Part shown: piece by piece, positions 12,556 through 57,994 of the stretch | Numbering within the stretch: position 1 is the stretch's first letter | How the letters are laid out: each line of letters starts with the position of its first letter | Source of the DNA: Ovis canadensis | Lineage: Eukaryota > Chordata > Mammalia > Artiodactyla > Bovidae | NCBI RefSeq assembly: GCF_042477335.2 | Contig: NC_091250.1 | Coordinates: 60,333,384-60,397,383, forward strand | Reading direction: 5' to 3' | Length of the DNA: 64,000 nucleotides | Notes under the pieces: generated by a model | Databases searched by the model: none | What the model was told of the DNA's origin: nothing | What the model saw: only the letters and a program-made list of their open reading frames with translations | Program-made: the position numbers and the translations under genes

Positions 12556-12608
12556 ATATATAAATAAATTATACATTTGAATGTATATACTGTCAGGTTA
12601 TCAGTGCT

Positions 12609-12641
12609 ATCGCTTCTTGGCCTTTTGGCTAAGATCAAGTG
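12609..12641 (+). ncRNA. U2 snRNA 5'-terminal fragment (33 nt, pseudogene piece)
   Basis: First 33 nt of U2, stopping just at the branch-point recognition element (GUAGUA begins at nt 33). It lacks the Sm site, the 3' stem-loops and any U2 promoter, so it is not a functional snRNA gene; it is the 5' part of the chimeric retroposon. Confidence 0.9.
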
Positions 12642-12853
12642 GTGGCTCAGACGGAAAGCGTCTGTCTACAATGTGGGAGACCTGGGTTCGATCCCTGGGT
12701 TGGGAAGTTCCCTGGAGAAGGAAACGGCAACCCACTCCAGTACTCTTGCCTAGAAAATCCCATGGATGGAGGAGTCTGGTGTCCATGGGGTCGCAAAGAG
12801 TTGGACACGACTGAGCGACTTCACTTTTCTTTTTTTCTTTCTTTTCTTTTTCT
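12609..12853 (+). mobile_element. U2 snRNA 5' end / Bov-tA SINE chimera
   Basis: 12609-12641 matches U2 snRNA nt 1-33 (atcgcttcttggccttttgg, then ctaagatcaagtg), with one difference at nt 10. It passes directly into Bov-tA at ggtggctcag, so the first ten or so bases of the SINE head are missing. The SINE then runs normally through cctgggttcgatccctgggt and gcgacttcac to a pyrimidine-rich CTTTT tail. The whole unit is flanked by TTATCAGTGCTAT at 12598-12610 and 12854-12866; the AT is shared with the U2 start. Other families could not be excluded without a search, but the U2 match is long and ends exactly at U2 nt 1. Confidence 0.9.
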
Positions 12854-13069
12854 TTATCAGTGCTATGAAGAAAAATAAAGCATAGAAAGGGGAGATACAG
12901 TAATAAGAGGGTGTAATTTAAAATAGACTTCTCTGGGCAGGTGGCATATGAGTAGAGACCCAGGAAGGTACAGAAGGTGGAGAAACCCAGGCAAGTAACT
13001 GGCGGAAGGAACAAGAAGACATTATTATATTGATTTATAGCTTTTACATAAAGCATGTGATGATGGTTG

Positions 13070-29904: not shown

Positions 29905-57994
<28,090 letters not shown>

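Follow-up and report, generated by a model that had tools for sequence, protein, structure and literature searches.

A dispersed family of Bov-tA SINEs with a U2 snRNA head in the genome of Ovis canadensis

U2-headed Bov-tA elements form a dispersed, multi-copy family in the genome of Ovis canadensis. The copy characterized here lies in a 64-kb stretch of DNA, referred to below as the window. We consider it very likely that this copy was recently derived from a small chimeric SINE subfamily that propagates itself, and the founder of which would have arisen by a single jump from Bov-tA to U2. An earlier note on the same DNA had placed the jump to U2 at the window locus itself; this is very probably wrong, because the junction occurs at 112 places and the variants of head and body are co-inherited, which makes the window locus a daughter copy. 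The same note had predicted that, if the junction recurred at other loci, it would represent a new chimeric SINE subfamily, and this prediction was borne out genome-wide.

Structure and boundaries of the window copy

The features of the unit are listed in Table 1. The U2 sequence of 188 nt used for matching is one that we take to be the reference, and five genomic copies (L115, L116, and L187 to L189) tracked it to its last base, 188, with some mismatches allowed. The head of the window copy corresponds to the first 33 nt of U2 with one mismatch. No second match to this segment was found in the 64-kb window at up to three mismatches, and none of 100 shuffled sequences contained a match. The body belongs to what we take to be Bov-tA, by name and consensus a tRNA-derived SINE of ruminants; the ordinary Bov-tA 5' end, GACTTCCCTGG, is absent, and the U2 head replaces about ten first bases of the SINE. 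A TG at the junction is common to U2 and Bov-tA. Thus, both the composition of the unit and the microhomology at its junction, as described in the earlier note, were confirmed.

The whole U2 and SINE unit is enclosed by one 13-bp target site duplication, TTATCAGTGCTAT, the two copies of which are identical at 13/13 positions. This accords with the earlier view of a single retrotransposition unit, and contradicts the case in which the U2 stretch would be an independent older pseudogene with its own flanks. The tail is composed exclusively of C and T, and is therefore pyrimidine-rich and not poly-A, as had been noted. Besides, Rfam (at the gathering cut-off) and ARAGORN gave no annotation within the 64-kb window, and a functional small RNA gene was rejected on these grounds.

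Table 1. Features of the U2-headed Bov-tA unit in the window (A-box and B-box consensus sequences are those that we take to be valid)
Feature	Position	Strand	Basis
Target site duplication, 5' copy, 13 bp (last 2 bases are also U2 nt 1-2)	12598..12610	+	Two separate checks agree
U2 snRNA nt 1-33 head, C10T at 12618	12609..12641	+	Match to U2
Bov-tA SINE body, 183 nt; diagnostics: T-less GGAAAG, CTGTCTACAATGTGGG, GCCTAGAAAATCCC, shortened CTGGTGTCC	12642..12824	+	Comparison with siblings
A-box-like stretch in U2 head, weak, 6/9 specified positions; no better than chance	12626..12637	+	
tRNA-type A box of the SINE, 8/9 specified positions	12643..12654	+	Presumed consensus
tRNA-type B box GGTTCGATCCC	12685..12695	+	Presumed consensus
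Pyrimidine-rich tail	12825..12853	+	
Target site duplication, 3' copy	12854..12866	+	

Copy number, independence, and 5' ends of the insertions

Several patterns were searched for in the genome that contains the window, an assembly of 2.97 Gb in 42 contigs. The exact 24-base junction was found at 68 places on 23 contigs, and its reversed pattern, used as a control, at none. With up to three mismatches, the 24-base junction was present at 112 places genome-wide, and a 42-base pattern over the entire head at 43; a 52-base pattern running from the junction into the body was found at 100 places, and a 52-base pattern with the ordinary head and up to three mismatches at 13 (control, 0 in each case). 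A search with the 3' body at up to one mismatch gave 54 places, at which U2 (29, including the deletion variant L123), an ordinary head (10), or neither (15) stood in front. The junction had no exact match in prokaryote and viral contig collections, which are uninformative on cattle or goat.

We analyzed 85 distinct chimeric copies, namely 78 from the exact-junction and 42-base searches and 7 of 33 extra places that were picked by the 3' body and contained the junction. This sampling demands a near-intact junction, so that old and heavily truncated copies are under-counted. In the 240-nt 5' flanks, none of the 3,570 pairs of copies had a common 25-mer, indicating that the 85 copies are separate insertions; the check put forward in the earlier note, whether the same junction occurs at other loci with different flanks, thus had a positive outcome. 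The copies also vary in truncation and tail. On the other side, target site duplications were recognized by the set criterion in just 16 of the 85 copies, which counts against the family reading. The corresponding figure for ordinary-headed elements was 8 of 21 rows, at least two of which (L133 and L141) are chimeric and were included via a loose pattern, so that we base no comparison on it.

These data bear directly on two explanations that do without a family. A one-off chimera at the window locus would account for the clean unit and its 13-bp duplication, but the junction at 112 places with unrelated flanks leaves this idea practically no room, and we rejected it by copy number. An assembly artefact or a segmental duplication of a single locus, for which no supporting evidence was found, is scarcely conceivable given the lack of common flanks, the spread of exact junctions over 23 contigs, and the differences in truncation and tail among copies; segmental duplication was rejected by the unrelated flanks.

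The family is young. Outside CpG sites, the 85 copies differed from their consensus by 2.3% on average, the window copy by 0.6%, and four copies (L015, L055, L079, and L132) not at all. Taking about 2.2e-9 substitutions per site and year for ruminants, the mean age of the copies, in a sample skewed to young ones, is about ten million years.

U2 begins at nt 1 in 22 copies, at nt 2 in 11, and at nt 3 to 22 in the remaining 52. Upstream of those copies in which U2 opens with nt 1 or 2 (33 of 85), no strong conservation was detected (at most 0.39 bits among the positions listed). Given their number and this lack of upstream conservation, U2 nt 1 is probably where the source RNA starts. From U2 nt 1, the SINE A box is 34 nt away, and in ordinary copies about 11 to 14 nt from the start of GACTTCCCTG. 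The A-box-like stretch at nt 18 of the U2 head was considered as a second A box that would explain the start at nt 1, and was rejected since 38% of shuffled heads scored equally. In the deletion variant L123 (1-751), TGGAAAG follows immediately on U2 nt 1-26: the segment between TGGCTAAGA and TGGCTCAGA is lost, the deletion falling between the two TGGCTMAGA stretches, and a single fused A box is left at the U2 position. To judge from this one variant, the U2 head may even supply half of an A box.

Joint inheritance of head and body

Among the 59 copies with a head reaching nt 8, U2 nt 10 was T in 54, C in 4, and A in 1. In the U2 cluster on contig C11, all 7 copies among the matches listed had C at this position. 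Nucleotide 10 lies within a CpG, and its change to T through decay is conceivable; because the CpG at U2 nt 3-4 was unbroken in 23 of the 33 copies reaching that far, T10 is best interpreted as ancestral to the main branch. The presence of C at nt 10 in five chimeric copies, by a separate tally, counts against a single origin. Two of the chimeric copies, L054 and L083, have A13 together with C10 in common and are perhaps a second branch.

A further head variant, the non-CpG change C14T, is common to seven copies, and six of these carry G137A in the body, versus 2 of 68 others (Fisher p = 9.5e-7). This was the best of 25 head-body pairs tested, each pair being required to have at least two copies in common. 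The head variant thus tracks the body variant, which indicates that head and body were inherited as one.

Chimeric and ordinary-headed copies have a common body. In seven ordinary-headed siblings (L152 to L158), the same body is preceded by GACTTCCCTG. As in the chimera, the T of GGTAAAG is missing in these seven and in the ordinary-headed L134 and L150, and the same nine copies also carry the shortened CTGGTGTCC. Eight others (L122, L126, L127, L131, L136, L137, L140, and L142) have the shortened CTGGTGTCC with the T kept, and may be an older form. Body site 84 was T in 30 of 35 rows taken as ordinary, among which N_L036_+1523 is the chimeric L036 itself; the 85 chimeric copies had C in 50 cases and T in 34.

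In the unmasked body tree, the chimeric label required 18 changes, compared with 30.4 for shuffled labels, and the starred branches forced 5. For the CpG-masked tree, the 35 ordinary rows were reduced to 16, all siblings of the subtype; N_L036_+1523, 17 rows without the subtype mark, and L136, in which the mark was present and the length odd, were left out. Here the label required 15 changes versus 14.9 when shuffled, the starred branches forced at least 5, and one chimeric clade appeared in zero bootstrap trees, but a constraint grouping the chimeric copies was not rejected (p-AU = 0.151). Besides, two sets of identical masked bodies occurred under both heads. As proof of one origin, therefore, the body phylogeny is not decisive and argues in part against it; the case for a single origin is carried by the junction, T10, and the linkage of C14T with G137A, not by the body tree.

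Origin of the fusion and its known relatives

Short U2 copies are abundant in this genome, U2 nt 5-33 being found at 460 places with up to two mismatches. From 100 of these 460 matches listed, we obtained 73 U2 copies lacking the family junction, earlier ends being excluded by the nt 5-33 pattern itself. Among them, 48 end at nt 33 to 36, the region used in the family fusion, and 15 exactly at nt 33; 5 are full length, and 4 (L108, L109, L177, and L193) have a SINE downstream. The full-length copies (L115, L116, L187, L188, and L189) belong to the U2 cluster on contig C11, near 51.60-51.74 Mb, which has at least seven copies in both orientations. Among eight loci inspected, two had a duplication around the whole unit: in L109 (1-801), U2 to nt 36 is joined to Bov-tA at the A box within an exact 11-bp duplication, and in L177 (1-801), U2 to about nt 39 is joined to a SINE in mid-body within an exact 10-bp duplication. 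In L193 (1-801), a copy of U2 nt 1-33 is nested in a Bov-tA and has its own duplication. The ends at nt 33 to 36 agree with passages of a study of tailless retropseudogenes (PMC5322556), which place such ends in single-stranded regions and argue for internal priming.

Based on these observations, a jump from SINE RNA to U2 RNA is the best account of the founder's origin, and L109 and L177, with their other junctions and unit-wide duplications, support such template jumping. We infer that an RNA of the young Bov-tA subtype lacking the T of GGTAAAG would have been reverse transcribed, that synthesis would have halted about ten bases short of the SINE 5' end, and that it would then have jumped onto U2 snRNA at nt 33 and copied through to U2 nt 1. 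With both boxes (A and B) and the 3' end of the SINE retained in the founder, its transcription by RNA polymerase III might have been possible. Copying would have proceeded in trans, with BovB as the probable driver; judged by the sequence, this driver is plausible because the tail is not poly-A. The daughters inherit the entire fusion: their junction is the same, most heads have C10T, and C14T together with G137A marks a sub-branch.

If every copy had instead come from a separate jump of Bov-tA RNA to U2 at one hot spot, the concentration of U2 3' ends at nt 33 to 36 among the matches listed, the existence of other fusions (L109 and L177), and the failure of the body trees to separate chimeric from ordinary copies would all be in keeping. 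However, such recurrent jumping would have to produce one identical junction at 68 places, C10T in 54 of 59 heads although the seven listed copies of the U2 cluster have C, and the linkage of head and body variants, and the junctions of L109 and L177 differ from that of the family; we hold it to be quite improbable. A less improbable but still unlikely origin is that a tailless U2 (1-33) pseudogene landed within the 5' region of a Bov-tA, and that later transcripts starting at U2 nt 1 spread. Among the matches listed, an end at nt 33 is indeed common (15 of 73 U2 copies), and L193 displays such a nested form. SINE 5' sequence was found within 70 nt before U2 in none of the 85 copies, although daughters starting at nt 1 would hide it. 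Jumping also accounts better for the TG common to both parts at the junction, and for L109 and L177, each of which is a fusion enclosed by a single duplication.

It is possible, if somewhat short of probable, that jumping between SINE RNA and U2 is a live route to new ruminant SINE families, in that the genome has several fusions of independent origin (the present family, L109, and L177), of which one became self-propagating because its tRNA promoter was left intact and its RNA start was moved to U2 nt 1.

SINEs with snRNA heads, said to have been described as SINEU by Kojima in 2015, occur in crocodilians. An rRNA-derived mammalian SINE was reportedly described by Longo in 2015; by its title, it resembles the present family in having a cellular RNA within a mammalian SINE, the RNA being a different one. 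The window family is like SINEU, as far as the latter is known by description, in being a dispersed multi-copy SINE with an snRNA-derived 5' head, but in the ruminant family U2 caps a tRNA SINE that has its own A and B boxes. Compared with Bov-tA itself, the window unit has the body, both boxes, and the pyrimidine-rich tail, and differs in the exchange of its first bases for U2.

Other relatives are found in passages of published work. SINEU is used there as a class name (PMC5753468), a SINE with a U1/2 snRNA-derived part is mentioned (PMC13174262), and the 3' end of Bov-tA is described as common to the BovB LINE (PMC5322556). In its relevant passages, a 2026 catalogue (PMC13174262) describes U6::LINE-1 chimeric insertions as full-length, in sense, and often with duplications, and usually without further propagation. 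These U1-U6 snRNA::LINE-1 chimeras resemble our unit in having an snRNA on the 5' end of a retroelement in one insertion (PMC13174262) and in the enclosure of the unit within one duplication, which holds for the window copy and, by the criterion used, for 16 of 85 copies. In contrast, the 3' part here is a Bov-tA SINE and not a LINE, the snRNA is limited to nt 1-33, and the U2-Bov-tA fusion propagates, whereas U6/L1 chimeras, according to the same passages, usually do not. Tailless U2 retropseudogenes, as treated in PMC5322556, likewise begin with U2 nt 1 and stop at an internal position, but here a SINE body and tail follow U2, with no duplication directly at that point.

In open-licence full text, we found no report of a U2-headed Bov-tA, U2 snRNA and Bov-tA co-occurred solely in unrelated passages of one paper, and a 21-base stretch of U2 is printed in a paper on mouse cells; Repbase, Dfam, or subscription papers may hold notice of it. 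SINEs headed by snRNA and snRNA::L1 chimeras are already published; the present family provides a mammalian tRNA SINE that is headed by an snRNA, for which no report was found in the open-licence literature. The origin of a new SINE head is usually inferred long afterwards, whereas here the pieces are still visible within one genome: the ordinary-headed sibling subtype, the U2 gene cluster, fusions with other junctions, and the young fusion at 112 places with its sub-branch. Owing to the low divergence, living animals lend themselves to tests of whether insertions are polymorphic, whether the copies are expressed, and what the head does.

As a minor observation, the window also contains an ordinary-headed Bov-tA at 53117-53348, which has an undeleted TAGGCTACAG and is flanked on both sides by ACAACATAAATA.
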